Part shown: one piece after another, positions 6,128 to 30,915 of the stretch | Layout: the number at the start of each line of letters is the position of its first letter | Position numbering within the stretch: position 1 is the stretch's first letter | From: Saccoglossus kowalevskii | Lineage: Eukaryota; Hemichordata; Enteropneusta; Harrimaniidae | Assembly (NCBI RefSeq): GCF_000003605.2 | Contig: NW_003133367.1 | Location: 172,525 to 204,719 of the forward strand | Reading direction: 5' to 3' | DNA: 32,195 bases | Notes under the pieces: model-generated | Told to the model about the DNA's origin: nothing | Databases searched by the model: none | Seen by the model: only the letters and a program-made list of their open reading frames with translations | Made by a program: the position numbers and the translations under genes

Positions 6128-6166
6128 TATAAAAGGTGCAGAGGCAAAACGTAGTCCCATTCACTT
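6128..6166 (+). promoter_or_regulatory. Core promoter: TATA box with initiator-like site
   Basis: TATAAAAG lies at 6128-6135, and a TCACTT initiator-like motif at 6161-6166 sits about 31-35 bp downstream. From there to the ATG at 6272 there is no other ATG, which fits a short 5' UTR of about 110 nt. A sharp TATA promoter suggests inducible or tissue-restricted expression of the lectin gene, but that is inference. The start site itself is not observed. Confidence 0.6.
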
Positions 6167-6271: not shown

Positions 6272-6325
6272 ATGTGGTTGCAGCATTTTCTGTTCTGGCT
6301 GATAGCCACATCATTTGAATTCAAG
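6272..6325 (+). CDS. Exon 1: signal peptide
   Basis: This exon encodes 18 residues beginning [18 protein letters not shown], a hydrophobic secretory leader. The start codon has A at -3 (AACAATG). The exon ends in phase 0 at an AAG/GTATGT donor. It is the first ATG after the TATA box. The signal peptidase site probably lies near the end of this exon or in the next tiny exon. Confidence 0.85.
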
Positions 6326-9300
6326 GTATGTCGTATGATTATCCCAGGCTCAGCGTTGATTGAATTGCAAGGTTTGTTGTACGTAAGTTGTATACCATTC
6401 GGAAAATGTGATATTTATTTCAAGTGGTTCGAGGAAATACAGGTGCTTTTTTACCTTCGGTAATTCTAGCTTTGAACTGCAAATTGTGTATTTTTTGTAT
6501 TTTGTTACTCACTTTGAAACACTTTTAAAATCTAATCTTTTAAAATAGCGGTTCAGGTATACGTCACTGCACATCCCTCTAGAACCACGACGTGTGCATA
6601 TTCCCATTAGACGGTGTCTGCACGTCTTGCTTTTTAACCATCATGCATCGTTCTGCAAGATAGACTGAATTTTTTATAATTATATTCTTTTTTGTTTATA
6701 ACATTATTAACTAATTTTGGTATATAGTTGATGTATTTTCTTTTGATTTTCAGGTTACAAATGCAGTGGGTAAGTATTCAGATCATTGATATATAACTTT
6801 ATATGTATTCCGTTCTGTGGATATTTAGTACCTCTTAAGTGTATAATTAAGATATGCAAATCACTTTAGAAAAGGATGCGCAAAATAGTGTAAAGTGAAT
6901 TAAACACAAAGAACGATAAAGACTTTCAGTTTTCGACATTGTGAAATTCTTTCGTTTATTTGCAATAATTTGCATACCAATAATAATTTTAATAATTACT
7001 GATTTCACGGGAATATTAATTAGAGACAAAACATAATTTAGTATATTTTCGATATTTTTGTAATTTTATTTGTCTTGAATTAGGACTGAAAAAAGCTGAA
7101 TGAAATTACAAACTATGTAGTGTGTTCAACAACTCATGTATGAACAATAACTTTAATAAATATAATTTTACTTGGTGGAAATTTTGTTTTTCCTTCATAA
7201 AAACAAAAGAATTTAACAATGTCGAAAACCGAAAGTCGTTATCGAAGTGTTATTAAATGGTGATGTACCATCGTGCGACTGAAAAATATCAATTGAAACT
7301 AATCTATTTCATTATTGCACGATTTTTTAGAATAATAATGAGTTGAGCGCATTTCCATTTATATCTTACGTGGCACAGTTTAAACGATACACAGTTCCCA
7401 TTAATGAAAGTAATACTGTGCTACCAGGTCGCACAATGCCTTTACATAATTAAATCACCTGTTTAGTTATTTTCATGTTCAGGCGTTTCCCCACTAAAGA
7501 CAAGGTACCTCATGTTGTCTCTACAGAGGTATTCGACTCGTTTGAGTCACCATGTGCCGAATACAAACTAGTCAATACAAAGAAGAATTACGTTAAAGCC
7601 AGAGCGTTTTGTAAAAACGATGGTGGATTCTTGGCTGAGATAAAAAGCCAAACGGAACAAGATTTCTTAGCAACGATTCTATCAGAAAAGGATGTACGAT
7701 TTGATTATTTGGTTGGTGTAAAAAGTGGATCAAATAAAAAGACTTGGATCTACACAGATGACGTGACACCTGTATGTTACACCAATTGGACACAGGAAGA
7801 GTTTTTGGCTCAACGTCACAAGACAGATGAATGTGTAATCTTGAGGTAAGTAATGTCGATAGTGTTCGTTTTCTAGCTCAAACACAAGCAAACAAACACA
7901 TCGCAGCTTATGTGGTATGTAGTTACCATTTTTTACACCAATCATTCACAGTATTGGGGTTTCATGAGTTTGATTTACTTGAAAATCGAAAGCCTGGTCG
8001 CTTTCAACTTTGCAGGTAAATTCGTTCATTTTATTATTTCATATTTCTGTTTTATGTGAATATCAACACTTATTTATTCAACTTCCTTTACTTGAATATA
8101 TCAGACAGGAACGTGAGAGTTTTGTTTTGTACTAGGATTTTACTTACTTTTTGGGGAATGTAATTGATATTCCCAAGGTTCCCGAAGTTGTTTTCGTTCA
8201 CATTGTCTAGATAATTTGATCAAAAAATCAATCACACAAAAGGTATTTGCTATAACATTTTAATGCATGCAGCTTCATGGGGGATTGTTGGGTTCACGTC
8301 ATTATCGTATTGTTTTATAATCCAAGAATGTATGAGTAGCGAAGGGTATCCGCTCCCAACAAGCATACGTTTAATATTTTGTTTTTAAGCATACGGCATT
8401 TCTAATACATATGTGTATTGCAGCGTGCTTGTATGGACTGCAATAATCGGCTATTGTGATGCCACACAAAAGTGTTAATTTGTCGGGAGTAGTTTTGCGT
8501 CGGTACGTTTGGTGAACAAAAGGTCACGTGATATGTTTTTACAATTGAAAACGTAATTATAATTGTTCGAAAGTATAGTTTCTGAACATTTTAATATGCA
8601 ATATATTATAGCTATAGAAAGAATATAATTGCACTGCGTCCGTTCTAGTGGAACTGGAAGTTTTAGAAAAAATGTATGCGTGTACATTTTCATTCTAGAT
8701 ATGATGAAACAGAAAGACCGAAACGTAATATTTGATTCTATGGGAAGTATATTGATACCAATGTATACAGAGCCACACAATATTTCATTTGTATTTGTTT
8801 TGCCTTAGTGTTATATGACACAGGAGTCTTCATAAAAATCTCAAATTGATCATTGTAGGTTTAAAACATAGAGGATATCTTAAAAGCAGGGAACAAATGA
8901 AAATTACTACACTTCAATTAAATAAACTTGACATTGTAGTGTCATGTTTGCATCATGCTGGCATTTTAACACCACACTGCGAAAACGGAAGCAGGCGTGG
9001 GAACCCACGATGTCATGTTTGCATCATGCTGGCATTTTAACACCACACTGCGAAAACGGAAGCAGGTGTGGGAACCCACGCCGACTCAAATTTCTTTGTT
9101 CTTGCATTACAATTTGTCCACGTAGTGTGAATTCATGTGCCAGAAGGTGTGAACTGACTTCTCGCCAACGCTTAAATGTGGAGGGTGGAGTCTTTTGAAA
9201 ATGGTGGAGGGTGATTAATTATTTTAATATTTCCTTTATTTAATCGAATACTTTTACAATTATTTCAGTTAGTTTAATATTTCCTTAAATGGTGGAAGGT

Positions 9301-12300
9301 GTTTAGTTACTTTAATATTTCCTTTATTTCATCGAATACTTTTACAATTATTTCAGTTATTTTAATATTTCCTTTATTCAATCGAATACTTCTACAATCA
9401 TTTCAGTTATTTTAATATTTCCTTTATTCAATCGAATACTTTTACAATTATTTCAGTTATTTTAATATTTCCTTTATTCAATCGAATACTTCTACAATGA
9501 TTTCAGTTATTTTAATATTTCATTTATTCAATCGAATACTTCTACAATGATTTCAGTTATTTTAATATTTCCTTTATTCAATCTAATACTCTCACAGTTG
9601 GTATTTATTCAACTACTTCGGAGGACGAAGCGACCGCGACGACAACATCTCCTGCAGACGACGCGATCTTGACAACACTACGACGCCGAACTCAACCGCT
9701 ACTGACGCCGACTATATGACGTTTTTAATTTTTTCAGTTCATATTACCTTTTTACTTTTATATTACGTCTTAATTCGCTTGATGTATATTTTAACCCTCT
9801 TTGTGAGACATCCGCTGCTTAGTGGTTCCGGGTCGAACCACAGGAAAAAATACCGATGTCATGTTTGCATCATGCTGGCATTTACCTAAATGAAGGCACC
9901 CAGATGTCCAATTAAACGTCACATTCTTCAGAACGTTTGGACTTCTTTTTTTCTGGAGCTTTCTGACTTCTGGTTTCTATAGATAGCCGTATTGAAAACA
10001 TATACACTTTTCAATCTTTCTGAAATGCTACCATATATTTTTTTAATTGTTTCATCGATGCTTTCTAAAAAAACAAGGTTGGTGAAATAAAAGGTTGTTT
10101 GGAGAGCTGAAACGATTACTCTCAAGCAGCCTGTAAATGCATATTCAAGAACTAGTTAAGGACACAGTTTAGTGAATTAATGTTACATTTTGGCTAATTG
10201 TTGCTTTTTTGGACTGTTTGAAAACTGCTTTTAACTTCTTTTTTTAACGGCTAGCTCGATTACCTTGGCATTTCCTTTACATTACGCATCTTAAACAGTG
10301 GAGCTACATCAGCTTACAGTCCGCTAGTTTGCCTGTGAACACCATAGAACAAGTATAACGTGTTCTGGAACAATGCGGTCATTAAAAACAGTTATTAACT
10401 AAATCTTCTACATTAGTTATCCTTATTTACATAATTGAGGCAAAATCGAATTGCAATACTAGATCTAAATTATCTGAATTCGAATGTGTGTATAATAAAC
10501 ATTATTTAGCAGTTAGGGGCCACGGGTTGAGTTTCACAATGATTCAACGAGGTTTGAAACTAGTCATTTTCTCCCCTGAACGACTGAACGACCGTATAAC
10601 ATTCTTCTGAATCATCACCACCAAATTGATTAGGTTTGTTTGACACATTTTAAGGTGACCATTCCCACTTATGGGCGGTGTTTTACAACAATTTGATGAA
10701 GACGAGATTTTAAACTGAAATCAAGGCTAAATGCACCCTTGGACGCCTGCATAACCTCGGAATTAGCACCCCCAAATTGACACCAACAATTATCTGACAA
10801 ATTTCGCCAGATTAGACCTCCCCAAGTCATCTTTGTCTGTGACATTTATGACGAGTATGGGTGATTAGTAATCATATTTCAAAAGATAATTATGCACGTT
10901 TCAATATATGTATTCAATGTCACTTCTTATAATAATAAAATGTCTTATAATTATATTTATTAAATTGTATTTTTGTTTTCAGTGAAAAATCGGAATTCAA
11001 GTGGGACATTGCGCCTTGTTACAAGAAACGGCGTTTTATTTGTCAATACAAACGCACAAATGGTAAGTTGTTAAATAACATCAGATATATTATTGCGTCA
11101 ATCAACAATTGTCATGTTTTTTTTATGTGAAAGCCAGTCGACGACAATAAAATCGCGGAAAGATTACCGCCGGGACATTTACGCTATCCAGCGATGAAGC
11201 GCTTCGGTCACGTCACGTCACGTCATTGCGGCGTGGACAAATGAAAGAACGGCCGTTCACAGCGTCGATAATGTTTCAATATCTGTATTCGCCCATAATT
11301 AAAAAGTAATATTTTTGATAGATTTATCATAGTCTGAATGTCGAACGACCATACAACCGAATACAGTTGGTTTTATTAAATATACACAATTTTTACCACG
11401 TCATGTTTGACGTCATAGCTATTTGATGATAGCTGGGCATGACTAATAGTTAAGGTGTATTATGTTTACGTGTTACAGCCGACGAGGAATGTGACATTCC
11501 GTCTTACGTGATATGCGATGACATGAACAAATGCATACCAGCGTCTGCCAAATGCGATGATATCATCGACTGCAGTGATGGATCCGATGAAAAAGACTGT
11601 AATGACGTCGTTATGCACCCACCTCGTCCCAGGACAAGTAAGTAAATGCCATTGTACATATTATAAACGACTTAATCTTATCAATTATTATTTGTATATT
11701 ATTGAGTGTTTTTGTGGCGGAATTATTGGGAATTTAAAATCATTAAATTTAAAACATGTGTTGTCATGCGGGGTACACATCAGGATTTCTCTAAAATCCG
11801 ATGTCGGTATAGACTCCATTTATCTAACTCCTTATTTTTTATATTTTTGAATCTATTTTTGTTGCTTAAACTTCTTGTTTAAAACAAAATGGTAGTTAAA
11901 CGAATTGGAGCCTATACCTCGAAATATAAACTTACTGTCTATGTGCAGTGCTATGCGATGATCTGCTGTGTTATGCGGTGCGATGCGGTACTCTTTTATG
12001 CGTTGAGCCGATGTGAGGTGTTGTTCTATGTGTCGCGGTGTTGTGCTGTGCGGTGCCACATAGTCAAAGTACAGTACTGTAGGTGTAGTACTGTGTGAAA
12101 CAATTCACTAGTTATTATTTTCGGTGATGAATTTAATCCATCTAAAAACGTACGATTACTTAATCTCTGAATTTCAAGCATCCAGTATGCGCTGTGTACG
12201 TATTACGTACGTATACGTAGAGTGAAATAACCTCGTTTCTTTTTTTTTATTTACGCTGATGTACAGACGCTGTGTACGGTCCTTACGAAACAAAATGCCA

Positions 12301-15300
12301 CAAAATCCAAGTGTTCACGCGCCATCGACGATGGAGCAAAGCCCAGATGACGTGTATAAACAGTGGTGGTAAATTGCTACAAATAAACTCTGAACAAATG
12401 CAGAATACGATTACCGGGATTCTGCAAGCATACAGTGATCTCGGCCATTACAGTTACTGGATTGGTGTATACGATAAATGGAATGAAGGTACATGGATGT
12501 ATAACCGGGTGAGACCTGCCTGCTATACGCATTTCATGAATAATCGACCTGTTGGTAAACGGCCTGCTCTCGACGATTGCGTGATAATGAGGTGAGTCTT
12601 CAATGGAGGATCTCGAATTTATGACTTCGTCACGCTGTTGGGATTTGTGGAGATAAGTACATAGCCCCGTCGGGTGGCTGTTTATCCTGATAGAAAAGCA
12701 AAATTCTAATTTAATGTTTCTCAATAATGCAAGCAACACGTGCGTCTCTTATTTTTGTTGACATTTTTGATCCGTGCTGCTTTATTTTACTTGAGTCACA
12801 CTTTAATTGCACTGGTATGATTTTCGTATATTCATGCAAATTTTAAATATCACGTGATACCGAACTCGCTATATTATATACATTGATCACGTCAAGTTTA
12901 AGTTCAATTTAACTTATTACAATAATGTCAATGATGAACATGAAAATAAAAACATAATACAAGGAATATGCGTTATCATGGCAATGGTATATAATCGTAA
13001 AATCAGTTGATGATTGAAAGCGACATTTGTAATATTTTTTGTCAATGTCTAGATGGGTTTCACAATAGACCAGCTCCCATGAGCGGTGCCCATTAACGTT
13101 TTACCTATGTTGTCGTGTTTTACAGGAACGATGCGAATTTTTCATGGGATGATATACCATGTAACTCAAAGAAACCGTTCATATGTCAGTATGATCTTCA
13201 GACAGGTAATATTTTTTTTTTCTAAATTCATATATGACACCTTCATTCCTGACTCAGAAACATAGTTGTGATTTGCTGAGTGATACAATATTTTTCAGAC
13301 ACCTTGATTTTTAGCTTACAATCATGCTGATCCTCTCATTTATAGGACGGCTGACCACGCCAAAATGCCTCACGTTGTGACGAAACTTACGAGGCTTACC
13401 GTAACTTACATGCATTGTGACAAAACAAAGGCGTTGATAATATGGATACACTCAAGTTATCCGGTGTTCGTACTTGCTATATATATAATTATATACTTCT
13501 GTTAATTGTTTAGAAATGAATATCTGGGATGTTTGTAGGCTGGGTTGCAGTACTCTCATGGGAAACTATTCCCTGAACCCCAGATAGCTTGATTCAGTGA
13601 TATAAATTTTGTACCCCATAATTTTCAGCGGAGAAGATGTCCGCAGACTAGTTGTTATGTAAACAACGTTATTGATTTGCTCCAAACATCGACCACCTCA
13701 ACTTTTGCAGGTCATTTTCAACATTTTCTGGGGGAGTTCTGGGTCAATGATTATTGATATTATAAACTTGGGTATAATTGTTAAAAGTCGATTATTAAAC
13801 TAACATAATGAATGTATATTTCCGTTAACAAAAACGTTTTCGCTTTTCTTTCACATTAGCTCCTGCAGAGTGCAAAGAACGTTCTCATTTCGTATGCGAT
13901 GGGGATAGGTGTCTTCCAATTAAGCAATATTGTGACGGCAGTGTTCAATGCGATGATGAATCCGATGAAGCTGACTGCCCTACATCGGACACATGTAAGT
14001 GCAATGTAGTGTATTGTAGTGTATTGTAGTGTAGTGCCGTGTAGTGTAGTGTAGTGTAGTGTAACAGCTATCGCACTAGCAGAAGTTTGAGGCTATTCCG
14101 TAATGTTGTATATTTCGATTGCATAAGCACAGAACACCCTTTTCTCTATTCTAGCTACAACAGAACGCGACATTGTATCCTATTTTTATTGCGACGTCGA
14201 TACATGTCTTCCACTTGAACAGTATTGTGACGGCGTGGTACAGTGTGAAGACGGCACGGATGAGGTAAACTGCACAACAACAGAGCAAGTCACAAGTAAG
14301 TCTTGATTTGGTACATATGTTCCACATTGTTTATTTGACGAGTTACACCCTTACTTGAATTATTGTTCACGTGACAAACACGCTTTATGGATGATCTTAT
14401 AGATGACAAAGGTGACATTTAGAAAACTGTATATTACAGCTTATCAACATTACGGTTAATATTTTAAATAGGCTTAAAAATGAGTTTATACAATTATTTA
14501 CTTATGCTAACGCTTGTTAAATAAAACAGTGTCACAGTTTGTTTGATTGTCATACAACAATTAATCAAAAATGTATAATCTACACTTTTGCCAAAATTAC
14601 ACGCAGATGCGTTCTTTTTAATTTAATTTCTGTTTAAATATATCAACAAATGCAAAAACGTTTTAGGAAGAAACGCAATGTTTTGTTTTTTTCTATCTCA
14701 AAACATCGAAACAATCGGGCAAGGGATACTGAGCTATTTCAAATTGTATTTCTTGTTTGGCTAATTTGCACAACTAAACTCTTTTGAGCAAAAGTGGTTC
14801 TTCTTAACATGTACTGTAATAATAAACTGCGTAGACACTCATCTAGAAGAATAATTGTTTGCAGCTTGCATCAATTATGTAAAACACATGCAAATATATG
14901 CACATAAAATATGTGCACCTCTATTTATTAATAAAAGTATTCTCGATCCGTTTTAATTTGTTACACTAAAAATTAATAGTTCAACATTTGACAGCATAAT
15001 TGGTTTCAACCAAAGACTCGTTAAATCATTTCCGGTAGTTCATTTCACTTCAGTGTTATTGTATATGATAGCATAAAAAGCACCGTATATTCAAAACATA
15101 AATCTGATTGCAAAAGGCTAGTAAATGCTAAATGTGTGTTACAATAATGAACCATTGTCTGTGACACGGTCACAGGTTTCGGTTTCCCGCTCACATTTAT
15201 TCGAATTTGATGTAAAACATGGTTGTGTTGACGATAATGTGTAAGTCTAAACAACATGAAGCCCCCAACAAGTAAAGGTTTCATGCAAGTAACCGCCTGA

Positions 15301-18300
15301 CCAAACTGTAGGCATATTACGAAAATGTGTTTTTCATCTTAGATGATTTTGAACGGTGCTAAATTGTTTAATATACTAAAAGCGATACACTACTAACTGC
15401 GTCAAAAAGAAGATTATTACGTAACTGTGATTATCTGCAAATATGAACGAACTATAAACTGAACAAATGAACCTGAAGGGAAAGCTATTGAGACACACTA
15501 ATGTCTGGATAATGTATGCAAATTTTTGAAAGATTTACTCGACACTGTACATTCTGACTTACCGTGGCTTAAAAACAAATAGGGTGAATATATTCAATTT
15601 CTTTTCAATGACACGTTACGTAATAACAATTGTGGTCTTATTCTATCGTAGCGGCAGTAGAGTGCAACGAGCTATTTCAGTTTGCGTGTGATGTCAACAC
15701 GTGTATTCCGATTGAACAATATTGTGACGGTGATGTACAGTGTAATGATGGATCGGATGAAGAAGACTGTCCTACAACACAACTATCCACTAGTAAGTTT
15801 TCTAAACACACACACAAAACACAAGTTACAGGGTTGATTAACGGGGGGGGGGGGAGTAATTAGTTTTAGTCAAACTAAAACTTTGTTTTTGCATCATACA
15901 ACAAATATGAAATATTAACCCAAGAAGATGTGTATACTGTTCTAATTAATAGTAGAATGATTATTTAAAAGCGTACGCAGATTACCTCACTTCGAAATTT
16001 ATTAGTCACTCGACTTGTAGCCATTTATACCGTTGTTCAATTTCTCCGTGTATATTAAAGTACATTCCAGAATTCAGCCAATATGAGATAATATCTCTGT
16101 AAGATATTCTTCATTATTTTTTTGGAACACATGCTGGTGTGACGAGCTTGTGATTGGCTGGGCAAACAATGATAGAATAAAAGGTAATCGTCTAACATGA
16201 CCTTTATTATTACCCATTTAACAAAATTGCATTGTTTTTGTTTTTACATAGCTCCCATGGAATGTGACTTCAGTTCTCATTTCCTATGCGATGTCGATAC
16301 ATGTCTTCCGAATGAACAATATTGTGACGATATTGAACAGTGTAATGATGGAACAGACGAAATAAACTGTCCTACAACACAACCACCGACAACACTTCGT
16401 AAGTCCTATAAAATTAGTCGAATTAGATTTCCTTCTCAATAATACTGGTCATTGATCTGTGCGACAACATCGCCATATGCTGTTTTATTAACAAGAACAC
16501 ATACATGAATATTTAGTAGAAGCAGTGAACAACGCCTATTTGGATGCGAAGAACCGGTTTTTACCAGTCAGTGGTCGCGTGCAAAACGCGAGCGCGCGCA
16601 AAACGCCAACAAGCGCGACGGCCTATACAATTGATTCATGGGAACTCCATTTCTAATAGTGCACTCAGTATAGTCGTTAGGTATTAGGCAATAAACCAGG
16701 GCAATAGAGATGGTATTCCTACTTGATATTTACAGTACATAGAAATATATAGGAATTACATACACCTTCGTCTTCACAAAATATTTATGTTTAATAGATA
16801 TATTTATATTTATGTATTAACAGACATAAAATAATATTAAAGAATATAATACTGCTATTACATAACATCTGGCGCGCATTCATAACTTTTGGTCAACAAT
16901 GATTTGAAATAAGAGATTTATTTGTTGATTCAAGAAATATTCATTTTTTACAATATTGATAATATATACTCATGCAACATTATTTATATTGCTTACAAAT
17001 AATAATGCTAGGTGACTAACTCTGATTTGAAAGACGATGTATAATTTGTTGTGTTTTTAGCACATTCACGTGAAATGTTAGCTTAAACTGAACAAATGCA
17101 ACACTTAAAAAACATGCAATTGATGGGTCGTAACAGTTCAATAAAATGATAAATCGCGGCTTAGAATAAACTCGGTTGCATTACTTGAATAATGTTATTT
17201 TCGCGAATCATTCTGAGATTCTCGTATTTTGTACGAAATACTAATTACATACTATTCCACCCATAGCGCCATATCTTTGGGATAAACCAGATCAATACTA
17301 TTGCTGTCTGGAAAGATGTATTGATATGAATGCCGTATGTGATGGAGTGATGCACTGTCATGACAACCATGACGAAATACCTTGTCAGACTGGTAAGTAC
17401 CCGTTGTTCTGATTAAGAGAGAGAAAACACATCTAAAAATATAAATTTCGCTGAAAATGTGAACTGGCTATCTCCTATTTGCATATTCACATGATTCAAC
17501 CTGCCAGTCAGTCGTAGTCCATGCTACGCCATCCTAAAAAGTACAAATATTCTGTTCCGACGATTTTAATGTGCGTTTTCTTAATAAGGAATTGACCTGA
17601 GATTATTTAACGGCAGTGCACAATTATTGATACTTATGTAATATAACAGTTATGTTACGACAAAGTTGGAAATAAATTGAAATAAATATATAATTGAAGA
17701 TTGGCATTTATATTGAGCAGAAACGACATTTTTCTATGGAATTTTCTATTGAAGTTAAATTGGAGAGTTTTATCAAAATTAATATTATTATTTTATTTAT
17801 AGTTAATTGCGTCGTTTTGCTATTAAATATATCAATGAAATTACTTTAAACAGAATCATTATAATGTAATGTAATTGGCTAATGCATTGCTATTGTAACT
17901 TTATGGACGGGGTTATACCAATGACTAACATAAACATACACGCGTGTAGTTCAATTCCATCGAGGTTAGCGGCCTGGTAGTGAGCCTATGCCCAAGCAGT
18001 GAATGAGACTGCATCTATCTGATATGCGCACTTATTTGAATGAACGTGGCATAATTTCAGAAAGGGAGAGGGACGATCGCCAACAATTGATAAGTGGTAG
18101 AGCCGTTGTTTCCACCTGTGTAACGTATATTGATAGTTCTGGGTATACTAATAGTAATATTTATGCGTATGTGCATGGCTTAAGCACAGTTTGCATAACT
18201 GTTCATGTCAAAACTATTTACGATGATCCTTACTCGTTGTTGTAAACGTTAAACAACTTTGAATAAAAACATGAAATTTGAGACCGTATTGCTATTTTCT

Positions 18301-21250
18301 TGTGTGTAATTTCAAGTGTAAATACCGCGTCTGTATTAATACGTTCCTTTGTCTTCATTCACTATTACGAGTATAACATGCCATCTGTTGAATCTGTATG
18401 AATACACGCATGTATATACACGCATTGTTTTCATAAAACCATTGGCATCTGTCTGTGATCAGTGAAATATATGTTTATTTTAATACTGTAGAACTTAGCT
18501 ATGTAACTGTATAATCCACAAACAGTAGATAAAAACATACACTTTCTACCCGCACTTTCTGTATTTTTGGTTTACCTTAATTTATTGTCTCAAATATTTA
18601 TACATTTTATGCAAATATCAGTTCAGAGCCGAGTTTAAACTCGTTTGAAAGTTGGCTTTTTACTGAAATTGACTGGTCAGATACAACTCTCAAGATCGCC
18701 TGGAGAAATCAAAGGCGATGTCATTATATTATATGGGGTGTATTTCTCAAAATTTGTTGATAATGTTATATATTTAGAGTACAAATACTGCACGGAACTT
18801 GCATTATGCACCTAATTTCCGTTATTCTAAATTGTCAGGTATTAATTTTGTAAAGGGATGAACAGCGTTTCACCATTACCAACAAATGAATAAAAAATGT
18901 TGTCGGTTTTTGTTATTGTTTTTGTTTGATACTGATGGATTTTGTAGTATATGATAGCTGGTTTATTGTTACTGCAATATGTTCAACAACTGCTCCCAGA
19001 TTATGAATTACAATAAATTGGACCAATGTTGCCACGCATTGACATATATGTGGAGTGTTGCAAGGGATCGTAATTATGCTGCCTATAGAAATAGATGTCC
19101 CGGGGTATAGTGTCGAGAATCTAAAATGTCATTAAATCAAATCAATCAGTCAGCTGTCCGTCCGTCTGTCCGTTGCCCGTCCGTCCATCCATCGCCCATC
19201 CGCCCGCCCATCCATTTATTCATTTGTTGCGCACGCCGTATACTAACGTGTTTTATGTTGCAGGTGTCACAGACTGTGCTGGGTCTGATACTTATCAGTG
19301 CCACGGAGATCACTGCATTGCGTCATCACTGACGTGTGATGGTCGACTTGATTGTAAATATAGAGATGATGAAGGTATGTTTATTTCTCTAATACTCATT
19401 CATTCCATCCTACAATGCATTATTATGACATGCATGGACCTTACATTCCTTTGTCGAGACTTCATGGTATAGGTTTACGGCACAAATTAATAAATATTCC
19501 ACATGTGGACGACATTAAGCGTGCAAACGATCTGTAAAATTTAAATCTGTCAAAGAACCTTCTGTAGCACATTTTAACAAATATGGTTTGTAAAACAATA
19601 AAGATAAATGTAAATTTCGGCCATTTCTGCAATTTTATGGCATTCTGTGTCGGACATTTTTCTATGGTACGCTCTAGCGTCAGCCGGGAGTCTGATCCTT
19701 CGTATTATCAAACGGCTTATAGTTTGTTTTTTGCGTATATACGATTTGAATATTAATTATCTTAATATATGCAGCTCAAATCAATCCTTTGTTCCGAGTT
19801 TGAATGAATCGACTAGTCTCAGAAGCTAAACATTGTATCATGTTATACATGCCACCATTTCTCCACATTCGAACCTCGTACTAGAACAGTACGACATAGC
19901 TTTCGCATACATGAATACAAGACGTTGTGTTATTCGAATACAGCTTAGTGACCAAATCAACTGCATACGAGAAAACAAAATATAGGGAAACAAAATGTAT
20001 GAGATGTGCACCACGAAACAACACTTACTTATATTATATCAATGCTATACGCCAATAATCACTATTTGCCTTGCAATACCACAAGTTTCTCCGATATTAG
20101 CCTCGAATGACCACTAAGTATAACCAAGTACGAGAGTTCGTAGTATACAGTGTATTGATTTATTCATATTTTTTTAGGTCCAGATTGCGGGCAGGTCACT
20201 CCCCCTGTTAAATTTGTGACTGACGAGTTCACAAGAAAGGCTGTGCTACCCACGGGAGAGGCGTATAAACTTGACGCATTCAACATCGATGACACGACCT
20301 ACTTAGCGGCGCCGAACAGAATGGATAATATTGTTCTTTTGTACAAATTCGAAAATGATGCCTTCTCGGAGCATCAGTCAATTGATGACGTCAAATCCGT
20401 TGATGACGTAGAACATTTTCAAATTGACAATGATCACTATCTTGCCTTTGCTTCGAACGCTGTCGGTGCCAACTCAACCGTGTACAAATGGGACGGGGCT
20501 AGTTTCCAGTTATACCAGAGGTTGTCTTCACTCTCTTCCCACCACATTGATATCCACGCTTTTAAGGCGGATATTTACGATACGTATTTTATTTCATTAT
20601 GTACTCGACCGCCTTTTGGCGACAGTACTGTCGAAATCTTTGAATTTCAATCAAGCCAGTTTGAGCGCACCCAGGAGATTTCCTTGAACGGAGTGATGCA
20701 GACTACATCCTTTTCTACCCCTACCAACACGTATCTAGTCGTTGCTGAGTCTAGTAGTACTGCAGACGAACAAACCAAAGTTTACCAACTCGACCATTCA
20801 ACTCGCGAGTTTTCGCTGTATCAAACCATGCCGGTGAAGGGAAGTTCTTTTGCCGCTGTCCCATTTATGTCTCCAGATGGCGCCCTTTACCTAATGGACA
20901 TGATCACGCAGAACGTCGATGATGATACACAGCAGGTACAATCAGCGCTTTACATCTGGCGAGGAAACCAGTTCACGTTACACCAGATGATTCCCACGTT
21001 CGCGGCAACGATGGCGTGTCCAGTTATTATTGATAACGAGCAGTATATCTTATTATTAAGTGGACCATCAGCTGATAGCGTTGCGAGATCTGTTGTGTAT
21101 AAACTGTACGATCACTATCTCCACTCCTATCAACATATCAGCGGCCGAGTTGCTAGTGAGTGTGTAGCTTTTCAAAATAATGATAATTATTACATATTTA
21201 TTCCTGAACCAGCGAAGCTCGGCAGCTTATACAAATGGATGTATGACTAA
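6272..21250 (+). CDS. Secreted multidomain protein: C-type lectin / LDLa / EAR (EPTP) propeller, 14 coding exons, complete
   Basis: Joined coding exons are 6272-6325, 6754-6769, 7527-7845, 10983-11062, 11479-11637, 12267-12591, 13126-13205, 13860-13994, 14155-14295, 15652-15792, 16252-16398, 17267-17392, 19264-19374 and 20178-21250. They total 2907 nt, which is 968 residues plus TAA. Every junction is GT-AG and every phase agrees without a stop. Domains: signal peptide about 1-18, CTLD1 about 33-152, LDLa1 161-197, CTLD2 about 220-340, LDLa2-7 between 349 and 615, and EAR repeats about 625-968. There is no transmembrane segment after the signal peptide, so the product should be secreted. Possible N-glycosylation sequons are NWT at 110, NFS at 322, NCT at 428 and NST in the propeller. 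By family knowledge, CTLDs bind sugars or proteins, LDLa modules are small Ca2+-stabilised binding modules, and EAR/EPTP propellers bind partners such as ADAM22 in LGI1. The ligand here is unknown. Exon structure is very secure. Function is inferred only from domain content. Confidence 0.92.
6754..6769 (+). CDS. Exon 2: 16-nt microexon
   Basis: A 16-nt exon sits between a TTTTGATTTTCAG acceptor and a GTAAGT donor and encodes VTNAV plus one base. It changes the phase from 0 to 1. That is exactly what the acceptor at 7526 needs, since G plus AG makes a Glu codon. Skipping it would put exon 3 out of frame. No transcript evidence is available here. Confidence 0.7.
7527..7845 (+). CDS. Exon 3: C-type lectin domain 1, main part
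   Basis: The acceptor is GTTGTCTCTACAG and the donor GTAAGT; the exon enters in phase 1 and leaves in phase 2. It encodes residues 24-129. CTLD features seen are C33, C52, the WIGL-like segment YLVGV (84-88), the W97 strand, C107, the sequon NWT at 110-112 and C126. Neither an EPN nor a QPD sugar-specificity motif is present where one is expected, between C107 and C126. A longer reading frame runs upstream past 7475, but phase rules out an acceptor there. Confidence 0.9.
8940..9081. repeat. Tandem duplication of a 71-bp unit
   Basis: Two nearly identical 71-bp copies lie head to tail (8940-9010 and 9011-9081), each starting TGTCATGTTTGCATCATGCT. They differ at a few bases (GCAGGCGTGG against GCAGGTGTGG). 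A third, partial copy is at 9855-9883. Confidence 0.92.
9219..9600. repeat. Minisatellite, 50-bp unit, about 7 copies
   Basis: The unit runs from TTATTTTAATATTTCC through TTTATTCAATCGAATACTT to ACAATTATTTCAG. One copy (about 9269-9306) is shortened and carries a TGGTGGA insertion also found just upstream. Each full unit ends in a pyrimidine-rich sequence with CAG, resembling a 3' splice site. Confidence 0.92.
9855..9883. repeat. Third partial copy of the 71-bp unit
   Basis: About 29 bases identical to the start of the tandem copies (CGATGTCATG to GGCATTT), 0.8 kb downstream in the same orientation. With the first two copies it brackets the minisatellite and a GC-rich block, so the whole may be one composite mobile element. 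Confidence 0.8.
10983..11062 (+). CDS. Exon 4: end of C-type lectin domain 1
   Basis: This 80-nt exon follows a TTTTTGTTTTCAG acceptor and encodes residues 130-156, with the motif FKWDIAPC and then FICQY. This is the canonical CTLD end, where a WND motif would give two Ca2+/sugar ligands; here it reads W-D-I. C142 should pair with C126 and C150 with C52. The exon is too short to be found by ORF length. The donor is GTAAGT, phase 1. Confidence 0.9.
11479..11637 (+). CDS. Exon 5: LDLa module 1
   Basis: This phase 1-1 exon encodes residues 157-209. All six LDLa cysteines are present (161, 169, 175, 182, 188, 197), with the Ca2+ motif [11 protein letters not shown], the most canonical of the seven modules. 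A Pro/Arg-rich tail (HPPRPRT) links it to the second lectin domain. The donor is GTAAGT. Confidence 0.9.
11945..12098. repeat. Low-complexity TGCGATGCGGTG-like stretch
   Basis: Degenerate repeats of GTGCGATGCGGTG and GTGTTGTGCTGTGCGG lie inside intron 5. Open frames on both strands here reflect composition only. Confidence 0.6.
12267..12591 (+). CDS. Exon 6: C-type lectin domain 2, main part
   Basis: This exon encodes residues 210-317 between an acceptor ending GTACAG and a GTGAGT donor, with the same phases (1 then 2) as exon 3. CTLD features are C220, W232, C239, the WIGL-like YWIGV (273-277), W286, C295 and C314. As in CTLD1 there is no EPN or QPD motif. The parallel size and phases with exon 3 suggest duplication of a CTLD-plus-LDLa block. 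Confidence 0.9.
13126..13205 (+). CDS. Exon 7: end of C-type lectin domain 2
   Basis: This exon is exactly 80 nt, the same length and phases as exon 4. It encodes residues 318-344 with FSWDDIPC followed by FICQY. W-D-D occupies the WND position. NFS at 322-324 is a possible N-glycosylation site. The donor is GTAATA. Confidence 0.9.
13860..13994 (+). CDS. Exon 8: LDLa module 2
   Basis: This phase 1-1 exon encodes residues 345-389. All six cysteines are present (349, 357, 362, 369, 375, 384). The acidic motif reads [10 protein letters not shown], with Gln before the fifth Cys (SVQC) where a Ca2+-binding Asp is usual, and Glu in place of the usual Gly. The donor GTAAGT is followed at once by a GTAGT repeat array. 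Confidence 0.9.
14005..14062. repeat. GTAGT / GTATT pentanucleotide-like array
   Basis: GTAGTGTATT and GTAGT repeats start 10 bases after the exon 8 splice donor. Each unit resembles a weak 5' splice site core (GTAGT). Confidence 0.85.
14155..14295 (+). CDS. Exon 9: LDLa module 3, first cysteine lost
   Basis: This phase 1-1 exon encodes residues 390-436. Cysteines 2-6 are at 402, 407, 414, 420 and 429. The position of Cys1, eight residues before Cys2 as in its neighbours, is Arg394 (CGC at 14166-14168), one transition away from TGC. The third Cys (407), normally paired with the first, would be left free. A Thr-rich tail with a possible NCT sequon follows. Confidence 0.88.
14296..15651 (+). 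other. Intron 9 of the lectin gene; nothing further seen
   Basis: A 1.36-kb AT-rich intron. A 79-codon minus-strand frame (15045-15284) has no motif and no coding support. Confidence 0.85.
15652..15792 (+). CDS. Exon 10: LDLa module 4
   Basis: This phase 1-1 exon encodes residues 437-483. Six cysteines are present (441, 449, 454, 461, 467, 476) with the motif [10 protein letters not shown]; Gln466 replaces the usual Asp before Cys5. It is very similar to exons 8, 9 and 11. The Thr-rich tail is PTTQLST and the donor is GTAAGT. Confidence 0.9.
15843..15854. repeat. G homopolymer
   Basis: Twelve G bases in intron 10. Confidence 0.9.
16252..16398 (+). CDS. Exon 11: LDLa module 5
   Basis: This phase 1-1 exon encodes residues 484-532. 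Six cysteines are present (488, 496, 501, 508, 514, 523) with the motif [10 protein letters not shown] and Gln513 before Cys5. It has the longest linker of the series, PTTQPPTTL, which is mucin-like and probably O-glycosylated (inference). The donor is GTAAGT. Confidence 0.9.
17267..17392 (+). CDS. Exon 12: degenerate LDLa module 6
   Basis: This phase 1-1 exon encodes residues 533-574. There are six cysteines, but their pattern is changed. The Cys1 position, eight residues before Cys2, is Trp537 (TGG at 17278-17280), while an extra Cys546 sits next to Cys545. The Ca2+ motif is weak: CDGVMHC, then HDNHDE. It fits the LDLa spacing otherwise and has a GTAAGT donor. It could be a structural spacer with altered disulfides. 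Confidence 0.8.
17393..19263 (+). other. Intron 12 of the lectin gene
   Basis: A 1.87-kb AT-rich intron. A short open frame at 18003-18245 has no recognisable domain. A CCGTCCGTCC/CCATCC-like simple stretch occurs near the 3' end (19155-19215). Confidence 0.85.
19264..19374 (+). CDS. Exon 13: LDLa module 7 (all but its last cysteine)
   Basis: This exon encodes residues 575-611 after an acceptor ending TTGCAG. Cysteines 579, 587, 592, 599 and 605 are here; the sixth, Cys615, is in exon 14. CDGRLDC and RDDE keep the usual acidic ligands. The donor is GTATGT, phase 1. Just upstream in the intron is a CCGTCCGTCC/CCATCC-rich simple stretch (19155-19215). Confidence 0.88.
19375..20177 (+). other. 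Intron 13 of the lectin gene; nothing further seen
   Basis: An 0.8-kb intron that splits LDLa7 just before its last cysteine. No other feature is recognised. Confidence 0.85.
20178..21250 (+). CDS. Exon 14: seven EAR (EPTP) repeats, predicted beta-propeller, stop
   Basis: This large terminal exon encodes residues 612-968 and TAA. The first residues complete LDLa7 (Cys615). Then come seven repeats of about 36-54 residues with the EAR pattern: hydrophobic/aromatic-Tyr-Leu strand, then a hydrophobic-Tyr-x-Trp/Phe strand, then F-x-x-x-Q-x-I. Examples are [37 protein letters not shown] and the last repeat YYIFIP...LYKWMYD. The last repeat lacks its outer strand. A matching strand (EFTRKAVL, near residues 628-635) stands before the first repeat, as expected for ring closure of a seven-bladed propeller. 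Related domains occur in LGI, TSPEAR and VLGR1/ADGRV1. The ligand is unknown. Confidence 0.9.
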
Positions 21251-21465: not shown

Positions 21466-23370
21466 CCGAGTCTTCTCAATTTTAAAGTTTATTTTGAAAA
21501 TTAACATCCACTTTTAATGATGTAGATTAATGAATTCCTATATTGATTTGATTTCGCATATTTAATGACCTTTCTCGCCCAATCACATGATTCATACCGT
21601 GACTCAATACCGCAGCGGTGGTAAGAAGCGAGACTTGAACTCTGGGAAAGCTAAGAAGACCATTCAGATTTCTCCCAAAATGAATGCAGTTTTTAACTAG
21701 CAGTTAAATGCATGTAGTTTGATAACAAGTTTCCACATGCTACTTTTATTGATCGATTCTTGTCCGCCATTGTAACCACTAAAAATCACGTCTACTATAT
21801 TCGTCCATATTTTGAATTTTATTGCTCTAATTTGCATAAACAAAATATCCGCTAAATTTCTATACTCTCCATAACTAGAACAAGCAAATATAATAGGTGA
21901 AATGTCTATACCGTGTTTTTAGGTTCCGGGGAAATTGTAAGAGACAATTTTAATGGAATTAGAATTACATAATCTTCATAAATATGCAAGTTAGCAGCCT
22001 CTAATATGGAAAACCAATAGGCAAGCAAACCTGCCAATGAAGTGTCTAATCCATGTAATATAATCAAAATAAAGTATAATCAATTTGAGTTTAGAGGTTT
22101 AGGTATAGTTAATGGTGAATCCTGAGTTGAAATTAACTTTGGGTTAACTGTTGATTAACAATAACTATATCTCTGGGTATTAGCCGTGTTTGAGATAGGG
22201 GATTCACAAATTAATTCAATGGGAATATTCACTGAATCATCTCACATCCTTTAAGTTTCTCGAATTTCAGCTATATCTCCAGACGAGTCAGAATGGCTAT
22301 ATCTGTCTATGTTTCAATCAAATAGTCAATTCATTTTTTGACCCACCCCCCTCCATGAGCACACAGCAAACAAGGCATTTTGGTCAAACTAGGACTCCCG
22401 CACGATGCAATGTGTTCCATACTGAGTAAACTCCGATTGCTCAAAGAAGTATGTTTTCAGTCATATGGAGGATTGCTGCATACTCCATACAAACCTGTTC
22501 AGTGATCCTTTACTACTGTGACCCGTGGTATTTGAACCTCAAATATTTCAGCCTTTATTCACCCTTATTGTCTGGTTTTATATCCAGAAACATTGTTTAT
22601 TCAGTAACAGAGTATTTGTCTGCCTATTTCTGAGTTGCGCCCTCACATGTCAAATTTGTTTGTATTTGTCTCGGAAAACCCATCACAATGCTATTATTTT
22701 ATATTGCCATCCTTCTTATCATGTTTGAAACATTGTCATCTTTGAGTTATATCTATGTATTGTTTCTTAAGTTGTATTGTTTCTGAAGTGATATTTTTAA
22801 TTCTTTTTTTTCAGATATGAGTTGTATGTATAAATGCGCCTTGAGTCATTTTATTATCAAGATTTATAAATGTATGAGAACTTTATTGAAAGTTGTTTTT
22901 TCAACAACTCTCTCTGATCTGTTCTTACATAGACATCAACGAAATAAAGACCCAAGATTATCAACCACAATTTACTCAATTTTTTGTGTGTTTCCTGTAT
23001 GCTGCATAAGACTTCAATCTTAATAAATGCAACATTGCTGCCCACACCACCAGCGAAAACATGTGACATTATAATAATAGTTTCTTTGAATTGTAGATAG
23101 GTTTAGATCAAGTAGTTACATGAAAGTGCCTTCAGTCATAGACTACATAGCTTGTAAAAAAAGGTTTCAGCGAAGCAAGTGACCATAGACTTGCAATGGT
23201 GAAGCAGACTGCAAGTAGGAGACAAATGCTTAGCGACTCTAAGAATATTGAATTGATCGACTGTCTTGAAAATGTCTTGATTTTCAATCTCTTCACTGAC
23301 AAAAGTAACATGGAACGTTTGCAGAAGAAATATGCAGCGGGAATGGTTAAAAAACTACAAGCACGCCACT
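21466..23370. other. 3' flank of the lectin gene; no secure gene
   Basis: This holds two AATAAA signals (22068, 23022) and AT-rich sequence. Around 22817-22870, text like AATGCGCCTTGAGTC followed by TTTATAAATG resembles the 3' tails common to CR1/L2-type LINEs and their SINEs, but this is weak. Short open frames here show no domain. Confidence 0.4.
22068..22073 (+). terminator. Candidate poly(A) signal of the main gene
   Basis: This is the first canonical AATAAA I see after the stop codon, giving a 3' UTR of about 0.8 kb. Another AATAAA lies at 23022-23027. No canonical signal lies within 500 bp of the stop, so the real end is uncertain. Confidence 0.3.
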
Positions 23371-25200
23371 GCTATACAGCTACACTGGTACCAGTTACCA
23401 CGATACAACTACACTGACTCCATCCACTGCTACACTGACCACTAGCAACACTGACTATGGAGCTTCATTGACCCCAGTCACCGCTATACAGCTACACGGA
23501 CTCCAGCCACTGGTATACAGCTACACGGACTCCAGTCACCGCTATACAGCTACACGGACTCCAGCCACTGGTATACAGCTACACGGACTCCAGCCACTGG
23601 TATACAGCTACACTGACTCCAGCCACTGGTATACAACTACACTGACTCCAGCCACTGGTATACAACCACACTTACTCTAGCCACCGCTATACAGCTACAC
23701 GGACTCCAGCCACTGGTATACAACTACACTGACTCCAGCCACTGGTATACAACCACACTTACTCTAGCCACTGGTATACAGCTACACTGACTCGAGCCAC
23801 TGGTATACAGCTACACTGACACCAGCCACTGGTATACAACTACACTGACTCCAGCCACTGGTATACAACCACACTTACTCTAGCCACTGGTATACAGCTA
23901 CACTGACTCCAGCCACTGGTATACAGCTACACTGACTCCAGCCACTAGTATACAGCTACACTGACTCCAGCCACCGCTATACAGCTACACGGACTCCAGC
24001 CACTGGTATACAACTACACTGACTCCAGCCACTGGTATACAACCACACTTACTCTAGCCACTGGTATACAGCTACACTGACTCCAGCCACTGGTATACAG
24101 CTACACTGACTCCAGCCACTAGTATACAGCTACACTGACACCAGCCACTGGTATACAGCTACACTGACTCCAGCCACTGGTATACAGCTACACTGACTCC
24201 AGCCACTGCTATATAGCTATACTGAATCCAGTCACCACTATACAACAACACTGACTCCAGCCACTGCTATATAGCTATACTGAATCCAGCCACCACTATA
24301 CAACAACACTGACTCCACCCACCACTATACAACCACACTGAATCCAGCCACCACTATACAACTACATTGACTCCAGCCACCACTGTACAACTACACTGAC
24401 TCCAGTCACCACTATACAACTACATTGACTCCAGCCACCACTATACAACAACACTGACTCCACCCACCACTATACAACTACACTGAATCCAGCCACCACT
24501 ATACAGCTACACTGAATCCAGTCACCACTATACAACTACATTGACTCCAGCCACCACTATACAACTACACTGAATCCAGCCACCACTATACAACTACACT
24601 GAATCCAGCCACCACTATACAGCTACACTGAATCCAGCCACCACTATACAACTACATTGACTCCAGCCACCACTGTACAACTACACTGACTCCAGTCACC
24701 ACTATACAACTACATTGACTCCAGCCACCACTATACAACAACACTGACTCCACCCACCACTATGCAACTACACTGAATCCAGCCACCACTATACAGCTAC
24801 ACTGACTCCAGTCACCACTATACAACTACATTGACTCCAGCCACCACTATACAACTACACTGACTCCAGTCACCACTATACAACTACATTGACTCCAGCC
24901 ACCACTATACAACTACATTGACTCCAGCCACCACTATACAACTACACTGACTCCAGTCACCACTATACAACTACATTGACTCCAGCCACCACTATACAAC
25001 TACACTGAATCCAGCCACCACTATACAGCTACACTGACTCCAGTCACCACTATACAACTACATTGACTCCAGCCACCACTATACAACTACACTGAATCCA
25101 GTCACCACTATACAGCTACACTGACTCCAGCCACCACTATACAGCTACATTGACTCCAGCCACCACTATACAGCTACACTGGCTCTAGCTTCCACTATAA
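23371..25200. repeat. Satellite array, 29-bp unit, about 63 copies, two subfamilies
   Basis: The monomer is CTACACTGACTCCAGCCACT plus GGTATACAG (29 bp, measured between successive copies near 23521 and 23550). The first part (to about 24200) is mostly of the GGTATACAG type. The second part is of the CACCACTATACAACTACA type, often with GAATCCAGC or ATTGACTCC variants that alternate as higher-order units. Because 29 is not a multiple of 3, open frames within it encode an 87-nt periodic peptide that has no biological support. Confidence 0.95.
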
Positions 25201-25204
25201 AACA

Positions 25205-26100
25205 AAGAATTGCCTATTTCCTGTTTTCACAAAATCCAAGATGACGGCCAAACCACGTGAAGGATCAACATTTCATATAAAGCTATGACCACATGTCACA
25301 TACATATTTATTTAGTTGATCTGTGAATGCACCTTTGAGAAACAAATGCCTACACTTTTGGTCAGTTTTTTCTATAATCAAAGATGACGGCTAAACCATG
25401 TGACTGGTCGAAAATATATTATTTTTCTCATATGCAACTAGGACCAGACTTGTTATATACAAAATCGGCAGTTAATTGGTTGAAGCACCAATGAGAAAGA
25501 AATGCACAAACTTTTGGTCATTTTTGTTAATAATACAAAATGGCGGCCAAACCACGTGACCAATCAACTTTTTTTGCACAAACTTGAAACAGATATGCAT
25601 GCCAAATTTCATGTCAATCGGTCTGCAACTTTATGAGAAGAATATTTTTAAAGAATTTAGTCTTGTTTTCGAAAAAAACAAAATAGCGGCAAAAGTCACG
25701 TGATCACTAATGTTCTTTTACCTCATTAAGGATAGGCATAGGCTACAGGTGCAACACAACACAAATTGGGACTTCTAGACCGACACAAAGTGGTCAAAAT
25801 GGCCGCTTCCGGTTTTCACTTAATCCAAGATGGCGACCACATTAATGGACCAATCAAATTTTGTTTTTCGAACTAAGTAGATATAGATTAGTAGAAGCTA
25901 TATACTAAGTTTCATAGCGACCGGCCATGTTCAGTAGAAGAAGAGATTTTAATGAGAAAAATGCAGAGTCAGCATATTTTTAAATGGGCATAACAGAAAA
26001 AGTCACTTGACCGCTAAAGTTGTTATTGGCGAAATTTATTGCACTTAGGCAGTACTATATACAGTAACAAATTTGAAAGCCCAGACCCTCAGAAAGGGGT
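25205..26100. repeat. Diverged tandem repeat, about 147-bp period, about 6 copies
   Basis: Copies of a core like CAAGATGGCGGCCAAACCAC-GTGACC start near 25236, 25381, 25535, 25680, 25826 and, weakly, 25980. After the core come shared blocks such as CCAATCAA, a T-rich run, AAATTTCATGTCAATCGGT, TTATGAGAA, and TGCACAAACTTTTGGTCA. Divergence is high, so the array is old. I know of similar-looking dispersed repeats in invertebrate genomes but cannot name a family. Confidence 0.65.
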
Positions 26101-27520
26101 TATTACCCCCCCCCCCCCCGTCCAATTTTGACCCTCGATAGCGGCCATGACAGTTAACCAATACAAATTTAGAAATTTCAGTGCACAAGTTCACATCAGC
26201 ACCAATCAGCACAGCAAGTTTGAAAACAATATGTGCAGCCATTTTTTCAAACGAGCTGACGAAAAAAACAAAGATTTTTTTGATTTTTGAGAGTTTTGAG
26301 ATTTGTCGATGTACAGAGATATCGACGTTTTAAGAGTTGTTTTTATTTACGTGTTGTTTCCGGAATACTTTTGACGCTTTTTGAGTTAAAAGCACCTTTG
26401 TAACGTGTTTAATGTCTTTTTGAAGTGAGTTTGGTGCACTTATATGCGTATTGTTTGATAACGCAAGCTTTTGTTCATGATTGACAGGATTATATGTAAC
26501 TCAGTAGTTTCTATCGTTTCGCTTTTCCCCGTCTTTTTTGCCAGAGGAGTAATGTGTTATGATAGCTTTGTCTTTGCATTCCGTTTCCACGCCATATGAC
26601 TTGTGTTTAGATTAATGACTTGTGAGTTCAGTTGAAGTTTATAAGCGTATATGACAGGAGTTTGATTAATAGCTTGTTATTCATTGTTTATTAGTTACCG
26701 CTTTGCAATGCTTTAACCGAGAGACGCATCCCTGGTAATCACGTGATCATGCTGTCGCTTGGTTACACCGCCACGCCTTAGTTTTTTTGACCTTTTGATA
26801 TAGAGTTTGTAACCTTAGTAACGAGAGACAGTGCAGCGAAGGGTTACCTCAGCGAACTGTTTGAGAAAAGTGAGTCGATTGGTAGCCTTTCCCTTGTTTT
26901 TTTATTTATAACCGTTGATATTTGTGACTTTATAACCATTGTATTTAGACATTATAATCATTGTACTTAATTAGTATGTTTTACTCTTTTTTTGATTTAT
27001 TCCTTATATATTATTTGGAACTAATTACGAGATAACCGTAGGTATTTGAACTATTAATTCTGACAGTTGGTATTCGTAGTTATTAATGTAGTGAACGATT
27101 AATCAAGATATGACGTATCCAGTACTTAGTGTGATTGGCTTTATGATTGAAGGTTACACCCTAGAGTCTTTTTACTGTTTTGTAATTGGTTAAAGTTTTG
27201 AAAATGAATAAAGAGAGTTTTGAGTTGGTCTTGGCGAGTACTCCACGATAGACGCAGTCTAAGTCCAGTCCTGGAGAGTCTTGGGCGAGTCTTGGGTCAG
27301 CCTTGCGATAGTCTTGGGGATTTTTCCCCAGGGCGCTGTGTCTTATAGAGTGCTCGACTGTTCGACTAAGACGAGAGTTGAACCGTATGTCGTTGTGTGT
27401 GTCTTATTTGACTGTAAAGCTTAAGTGACTTTCCTGATCCCGCACCTCAAGGGGACGAGATATAGAGACGAGACAAGATTTCCCCCTGGCACGTGTGGAG
27501 AACCCCGAAGAGAAGAATTC
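26101..27520. other. Unassigned sequence, possible old retroelement remains
   Basis: It starts with a run of 14 C (26106-26119). A 12-bp string GAGAGTTTTGAG occurs at 26289 and again at 27213. Near 27265-27320 AGTCTTGGG recurs three or four times, after an AATAAA at about 27207. This could be LTR-type regulatory DNA, but no clear LTR ends or protein frames were seen. Confidence 0.25.
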
Positions 27521-27521
27521 C

Positions 27522-28030: not shown

Positions 28031-28037
28031 GAATTAC

Positions 28038-28230
28038 TTATAGTTTTTTTATGTTATCGCTCAAGTAGGGCAATGTGCGATTGTATCTGTTTACGTGTGT
28101 AACCAGGAGCAACTGTATCTGGGAAACACTTCTTATTGTCACTGACTACTTAAATTTTTAGATTAGGCCAGATCAATTGTTGATTTACAACTGATAAACA
28201 ATGTGTGAAGTTCCAATCACTAATATGATA
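28038..28230 (-). pseudogene. Broken duplicate of the exon at 30719-30827
   Basis: About 190 bp, highly similar to 30717-30915, covers the same 36 codons and part of the upstream intron. In this copy a TAA stop (28054-28056) interrupts the frame after LLER, 3 bases are added, and the splice acceptor is changed (TTTAG/G to TTTAAG). Similarity stops right at the splice donor, where the LINE fragment begins. It is therefore a decayed duplication. Confidence 0.75.
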
Positions 28231-30827: not shown

Positions 30828-30915
30828 CTAAATTTTTAGATTCGATATCTAGGCCACATCAATGGTTGATCTATAACAACTAATCGATGTGTGAAGTTCC
30901 AATCACTAATACAAT

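Follow-up and report, generated by a model that had tools for sequence, protein, structure and literature searches.

What is known of EAR propellers (EPTP in Pfam) comes mostly from LGI1, ADGRV1 and TSPEAR and concerns epilepsy, deafness and defects of teeth or hair. LGI1-4 are secreted neuronal proteins with leucine-rich repeats (LRR) and a C-terminal propeller. TSPEAR is secreted as well, with C-terminal EAR repeats and a TSP-N/laminin-G-like domain, and ADGRV1 (VLGR1) joins the EAR with Calx-beta domains and a seven-transmembrane part. On the lectin side, the excerpted text of PMC5379193 describes MjGCTL, a shrimp LDLa-CTLD lectin with one LDLa module and one carbohydrate-recognition domain bearing a QAP motif. 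The window analyzed here is a 32,195-nucleotide stretch of the hemichordate Saccoglossus kowalevskii (GCF_000003605.2, NW_003133367.1, positions 172,525 to 204,719), which forms the end of the contig that we number C2523. It holds a predicted gene on the + strand (6272-21250) whose product would combine two C-type lectin-like domains (CTLDs), seven LDLa modules and one EAR domain, a putative propeller.

Like LGI1-4, the predicted protein has its EAR/EPTP domain at the C-terminus and is putatively secreted; unlike them, it has neither LRR nor the C260-C286 disulfide, carries another cysteine pair and has lost most of the residues that contact ADAM22. The EAR is what it has in common with TSPEAR and ADGRV1, whereas the TSP-N/laminin-G-like domain of the first was not found in its 977 residues, nor were the Calx-beta domains or any transmembrane-like stretch recalling the second. 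MjGCTL has a signal peptide, LDLa and CTLD in one secreted protein (PMC5379193); LDLa and CTLD are shared by the protein described here, whose signal peptide is putative, but it has seven LDLa modules and two CTLDs without QAP, plus the EAR.

Within an open-access literature of 5.39 million papers, none was found that combines EPTP with LDLa and C-type lectin, or EPTP with deuterostomes, and the papers mentioning EPTP and lectin concern other subjects, judging by their listing. An EPTP domain has been reported in a sponge archaeal symbiont (excerpted text of PMC7848895), and PMC2949613 makes no mention of invertebrate, amphioxus, sea urchin, LDL, Nematostella or lectin. To that extent the combination is undescribed, as had been supposed in a preliminary description of this DNA. 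This novelty is literature-based, and hemichordate gene models already in public databases may include the same domain order without annotation. Mosaic proteins of many domains are frequent among invertebrate deuterostomes, and what is new in the one described here is the combination, not the type of protein.

Gene Structure

The gene was rebuilt as 14 exons with an open frame of 977 residues and no internal stop. All 13 introns are bounded by GT-AG, and phases match across every junction. The preliminary description had likewise joined 14 exons in phase from the same start to the same stop, and this is borne out. The length given there, 968 residues, differs from ours; since start and stop agree, the difference sits in splice choice. 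The features of the gene, with the evidence for each in brackets, are as follows.

6128..6133, +, TATAAA box, putative core promoter (motif)
6272..6325, +, exon 1: translation start and putative signal peptide, a hydrophobic leader (gene model)
6754..6769, +, exon 2: 16-nt microexon, the least certain exon (AG/GT borders and frame)
7500..7845, +, exon 3: CTLD 1, first part (gene model, Pfam, alignment to PDB relatives)
10983..11062, +, exon 4: CTLD 1, last part, after a phase-2 intron within the domain (gene model, Pfam, alignment to PDB relatives)
11479..11637, +, exon 5: LDLa 1 (gene model, Pfam, cysteine pattern)
12267..12591, +, exon 6: CTLD 2, first part (gene model, Pfam, alignment to PDB relatives)
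13126..13205, +, exon 7: CTLD 2, last part, after a phase-2 intron at the place matching CTLD 1 (gene model, Pfam, alignment to PDB relatives)
13860..13994, +, exon 8: LDLa 2 (gene model, Pfam, cysteine pattern)
14155..14295, +, exon 9: LDLa 3, five cysteines (gene model, Pfam, cysteine pattern)
15652..15792, +, exon 10: LDLa 4 (gene model, Pfam, cysteine pattern)
16252..16398, +, exon 11: LDLa 5 (gene model, Pfam, cysteine pattern)
17267..17392, +, exon 12: LDLa 6, first cysteine replaced, one extra cysteine (gene model, Pfam, cysteine pattern)
19264..19374, +, exon 13: LDLa 7, cysteines 1-5 (gene model, Pfam, cysteine pattern)
20178..21250, +, exon 14: LDLa 7, cysteine 6 (20186-20188), followed by all seven repeats of the EAR/EPTP domain (about 20237-21247) and by the stop codon (gene model, Pfam, structure model, alignments)
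22068..22073, +, putative poly(A) signal, the first AATAAA/ATTAAA after the stop (motif)

LDLa 7 straddles the last intron: its cysteines 1-5 are encoded in exon 13, and its sixth is the third residue encoded by full codons of exon 14. Exon 14 thus completes a module begun in exon 13, and because the EAR exon holds this cysteine, the LDLa part and the propeller lie in one frame. The split module is the strongest internal evidence that lectin part and EAR belong to a single gene, as predicted from the genomic sequence, and together with the matching phases it supports the one-gene model proposed at the outset. The open frame of the EAR exon runs to 363 codons, compared with a longest frame of 215 in 60 Markov simulations of the window.

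Phase 1 predominates, with 10 of the 13 introns in it. The leader intron is phase 0, and one phase-2 intron lies inside each CTLD, at matching places. Each CTLD, like each of LDLa 1-6, is a phase 1-1 unit, and the terminal EAR exon is entered in phase 1. The weakest part of the gene model is exon 2, with its 16 nt. For exon 3, an acceptor at 7483 was rejected, as it breaks the frame that the acceptor at 7500 keeps. No second copy of any exon was detected in the window (E up to 1).

Domain Architecture

Pfam assigned the 977 residues the order CTLD-LDLa-CTLD-LDLa(x6)-EAR, bearing out the domain content and order first described. Ldl_recept_a was found in seven stretches (E 5.9e-34), Lectin_C in two (E 3.8e-28; 98.8 bits against a cut-off of 22.6) and EPTP with E 2.3e-19 (69.6 bits against a cut-off of 21), of which just two stretches pass singly. 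No other Pfam domain scored above cut-off. LRR and TSP-N/laminin-G-like domains were absent from the matches at E up to 1.

The protein is cysteine-rich (56 Cys), with four N-glycosylation sequons and threonine-rich linkers. No stretch looks transmembrane, the top 19-residue Kyte-Doolittle mean being 1.26. The N-terminus appears hydrophobic, and a putative signal peptide is assigned to it on inspection alone. In the LDLa modules the Asp after cysteine 4 is kept in seven of seven, whereas cysteine 5 is preceded by Gln in four modules, by Asp in two and by His in one. The count of seven includes LDLa 3, which has five cysteines, and LDLa 6, which is without the usual first cysteine. One cysteine of LDLa 3 (14155-14295) should be unpaired; it could join two chains or signal decay of the module.

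C-Type Lectin-Like Domains

The best PDB relative of CTLD1 is PLA2R (E 9.6e-36), and that of CTLD2 is C-type mannose receptor 2 (E 4.4e-20). In classical calcium-dependent C-type lectins, the sugar-binding motifs are EPN or QPD together with WND. The EPN/QPD tripeptide is found in neither CTLD: CTLD2 has R-P-V opposite the EPN of C-type mannose receptor 2, and the corresponding loop of CTLD1 contains no proline. The WND position reads WDI in CTLD1 and WDD in CTLD2. Neither domain has a QAP motif. Because EPN/QPD is missing from both, classical calcium-dependent sugar binding is not predicted, and the earlier term "lectin heads" is not supported in its classical sugar-binding sense. Non-classical binding may occur, by analogy with the shrimp lectin and its variant motif (excerpted text of PMC5379193). 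Another CTLD exon lies on the same contig at 133142-133516, about 45 kb upstream of the gene.

EAR Domain and Its Predicted Propeller Fold

Seven EAR repeats were delimited by eye and scored by leave-one-out repeat hidden Markov models (HMMs), each repeat being ranked against 999 shuffles (1000 in total). The ranks were 2, 1, 174, 11, 7, 9 and 1, the third repeat being a weak one. AlphaFold gave a weak model for the EAR exon, with a predicted local distance difference test (pLDDT) score of 52; ranks 1-7 of its Foldseek list were all human LGI1 entries, and a second look with VIA-align pointed to propellers in general, with LGI1 not set apart from others. By sequence, LGI1 is the closest solved relative (phmmer E 4.1e-10; profile E 7.9e-18), and the local HMMER alignments to it are shifted by at least one blade.

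The C260-C286 disulfide, located in blades 1 and 2 of LGI1, is missing, and the EAR exon product has V52 and V77 in those columns; elsewhere in the genome, the EARs of C3058 and C4504 each have the two cysteines. Another pair, C280/C328 of the EAR exon product (blades 6 and 7; about 21017-21163), occurs in seven of the eight genome EARs compared (C345 and C3233 were left out) and is absent from LGI1. It may represent an alternative ring-closing disulfide. For the calcium ligands, the end-to-end alignment keeps only D334. The phmmer alignment instead places a D-x-E of the second repeat on LGI1 D334 and E336, a register that would speak for a calcium site one blade earlier and with which the end-to-end alignment disagrees.

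Nine LGI1 residues that contact ADAM22 were compared, four of them hydrogen-bonding and five hydrophobic (excerpted text of PMC5906670). In the end-to-end alignment none of the four hydrogen-bonding residues is kept, and the hydrophobic set shows one identity and two similar residues (LGI1/here: F256/M, V284/V, L302/N, Y433/F, M477/T; a second alignment puts L302 in a gap). EAR sequences are fast-diverging, with 23-29% identity among the long ones, and the lost residues are for that reason weak evidence against an ADAM22-like partner. Such a partner is not supported by this comparison.

Other EAR Genes in the Genome

The searches covered part of a genome of 572,110,611 bases in 4830 contigs; gene flanks were partly covered as well, so that counts of partner domains are lower bounds. 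EAR sequence was found at at least nine other loci (C3058, C4504, two on C1344, C4807, C2612, C345, C4340 and C3233). The two genes on C1344 are convergent, gene A at 96725-103129 (+) and gene B at 112661-about 119600 (-). In gene A the EAR exon is preceded by a PAN domain and a Sushi exon (18.2 bits, cut-off 20.7), and gene B has PAN, EGF and Sushi (18.6 bits, cut-off 20.7). The Sushi matches are below cut-off yet recur at the same place in both genes. In each, the phase-1 donor of the Sushi exon leads to the phase-1 acceptor of the EAR exon, as read by hand; the link of the PAN and EGF exons to the Sushi exon is a presumed one. These genes thus resemble ours in their single-exon EAR after a phase-1 intron, but PAN, EGF (in one gene) and the sub-cut-off Sushi take the place of CTLD and LDLa. 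Entry into the EAR exon in intron phase 1 was seen in three genes of the genome, the present one and C1344 A and B.

Other partners were observed elsewhere. At C3058:57371-59890, the EAR is preceded in the same frame by several hundred residues, many of them in threonine-rich repeats (TTEPTQVK), forming a mucin-like stalk that Pfam labels Cornifin. C345 has one Calx-beta match above and one below cut-off and spreads its EAR across at least three exons, whereas ours is in one; it is probably an ADGRV1-like gene. In the flank parts covered, C4504, C2612, C4340 and C3233 showed no partner, and LDLa or CTLD was not seen near any other EAR gene, a weak negative. A frame of 7486 residues with EAR on C4807 was rejected as an artifact, being mostly a run of N. 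The preliminary description had paired EAR propellers only with LRR, TSP-N/laminin-G-like and seven-transmembrane parts, an account that proves incomplete, as the same genome has EARs after a Sushi-like exon and after a threonine-rich stalk. On these predictions, the CTLD/LDLa-EAR gene is one of several EAR combinations in the genome and not a lone oddity.

A tree of nine EARs (the window, C3058, C4504, C1344A, C1344B, C2612, C4807, C4340 and LGI1, with the fragmentary C345 and C3233 left out) was unresolved, with C3058 and C4504 as its only group (91/93), so we make no claim on the nearest EAR. No second gene with CTLD, LDLa and EAR was present among the matches listed for the genome, and the 78 matches listed (70 of 355 candidates scored) included no close paralogue of the lectin/LDLa exons. 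The best of those listed for the N-terminal 627 residues, leaving aside contig C2523, was tandem-LDLa-like, on C4670, with 38% identity. Viral contigs yielded no relatives.

Origin and Proposed Function

On the basis of the intron phases and the other EAR genes of the genome, we infer that the mosaic arose by exon shuffling of phase-1 modules. The reading that we tentatively prefer, while holding it short of probable, is that of a secreted multivalent adaptor made in this way. In such a protein the LDLa string and the threonine-rich linkers would serve as a spacer. The two CTLDs would be recognition heads of a non-classical kind, binding protein, or sugar without an EPN/QPD site, and the propeller would dock via its channel rim, in the way that LGI1 engages ADAM22, on a different partner at the cell surface or in the matrix. 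The whole would then act as a soluble multivalent adaptor. Adaptor function is the least sure step, and one that we infer. A caveat on secretion is that the leader lies outside the five most hydrophobic 19-residue windows of the protein. Of the earlier claim of secretion, the secreted look of the product stands, with a leader that is hydrophobic by eye. The role first proposed, a putative immune or matrix recognition molecule whose lectin heads and propeller would bind two different partners, is supported in part, given the missing EPN/QPD motifs and the mostly unconserved ADAM22 contacts.

A broader and more doubtful possibility is that the EAR is a shuffle-ready terminal exon, placed more than once behind recognition modules in a hemichordate-like lineage and giving an undescribed class of soluble, propeller-tailed proteins. 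The recognition modules would be CTLD/LDLa here, those of the PAN/EGF/Sushi pair (perhaps one event and a duplication) and, once, a mucin-like stalk. If this is true, the neuronal LGI proteins and the sensory ADGRV1 and TSPEAR would be merely those members of such a class that are known from vertebrates. Use of the propeller outside chordates as an exchangeable tail on lectin-like or complement-like modules would suggest a general partner-binding domain, and such EAR genes would offer natural fusions for asking what the propeller binds without LRR.

Among other explanations, the protein could be a soluble immune opsonin whose CTLDs bind microbes and whose LDLa/EAR part recruits haemocytes or mucus, comparable to the shrimp LDLa-CTLD lectins. 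Immune lectins that pair LDLa with CTLD are known from invertebrates, for example MjGCTL (excerpted text of PMC5379193), and the genome has many CTLD matches, some of them clustered on one contig (C1416, C1613, C4174), as in a lectin-rich innate system. Lacking both EPN/QPD and QAP, however, the CTLDs do not favor such a role, and neither does the absence of signs of recent duplication, a frequent trait of immune genes, in the form of a second copy in the window or among the genome matches listed (70 of 355 scored). We regard an opsonin as rather unlikely.

The protein could also be a matrix, mucus or junction component that binds matrix at its two ends and so links an extracellular layer structurally, for instance skin mucus, cuticle or the matrix of the gill slits. 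Its many modules, 56 cysteines, four sequons and threonine-rich linkers would suit such a link, and the EAR gene on C3058 carries a long threonine-rich stalk. Nothing specific speaks against this role, apart from Pfam reporting only CTLD, LDLa and EPTP above cut-off; we consider it unlikely.

Compared with these, a neural or signaling ligand working like LGI1 through ADAM-family receptors is very improbable. LGI1 is the closest solved propeller relative by sequence and tops the Foldseek list, but its C260-C286 disulfide is missing here and its ADAM22 contacts are mostly not kept, the latter being weak evidence. Finally, the introns are large and the joined model is a prediction, as would suit two neighboring genes, one for CTLD/LDLa and, after it, one for the EAR, that had been mis-joined, but with LDLa 7 split over exons 13 and 14, phases matching at every junction and Pfam finding no domain beyond LDLa 7 of exon 13 in the four of 13 introns scanned (3, 9, 12 and 13), we give this almost no weight. 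A shuffled, secreted adaptor is the reading that we retain, at the tentative strength given above.

Flanking Sequence and Mitochondrial Contig

Intron 3 contains tandem repeats at 8940-9590, comprising a 71-bp unit in two copies (98%), an 88-bp unit in two copies and a 50-bp unit in nearly six. Downstream of the gene lie about 60 copies of a 29-bp minisatellite (23469-25203). No Pfam domain scored above cut-off on either strand of 22200-32195, and Rfam gave no match. A short open frame at 27730-27969 (-), without a Pfam match, presumably resembles a reverse-transcriptase fragment. Near the contig end, 31475-31801 (+) gave a match like the C2 domain of PKC, at 17.5 bits against a Pfam cut-off of 18.

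The assembly also includes a mitochondrial contig (C4830), on which COX1 lies on the strand opposite ND1 and COX2. In its COX1, ATA stands at what we take to be isoleucine sites, for example YNV-ATA-VTAH and PIM-ATA-GGFG. In ND1, AAA stands at presumed lysines (ER-AAA, QAR-AAA-GP) and AGA at a presumed serine. Taken together over three genes, these codon meanings suggest a Saccoglossus-like hemichordate. According to the excerpted text of PMC3121625, AUA encodes Ile in echinoderms, enteropneusts and Rhabdopleura and Met in chordates, AAA encodes Asn in echinoderms and Lys in Saccoglossus, and the mitochondrial gene order of Saccoglossus is derived.
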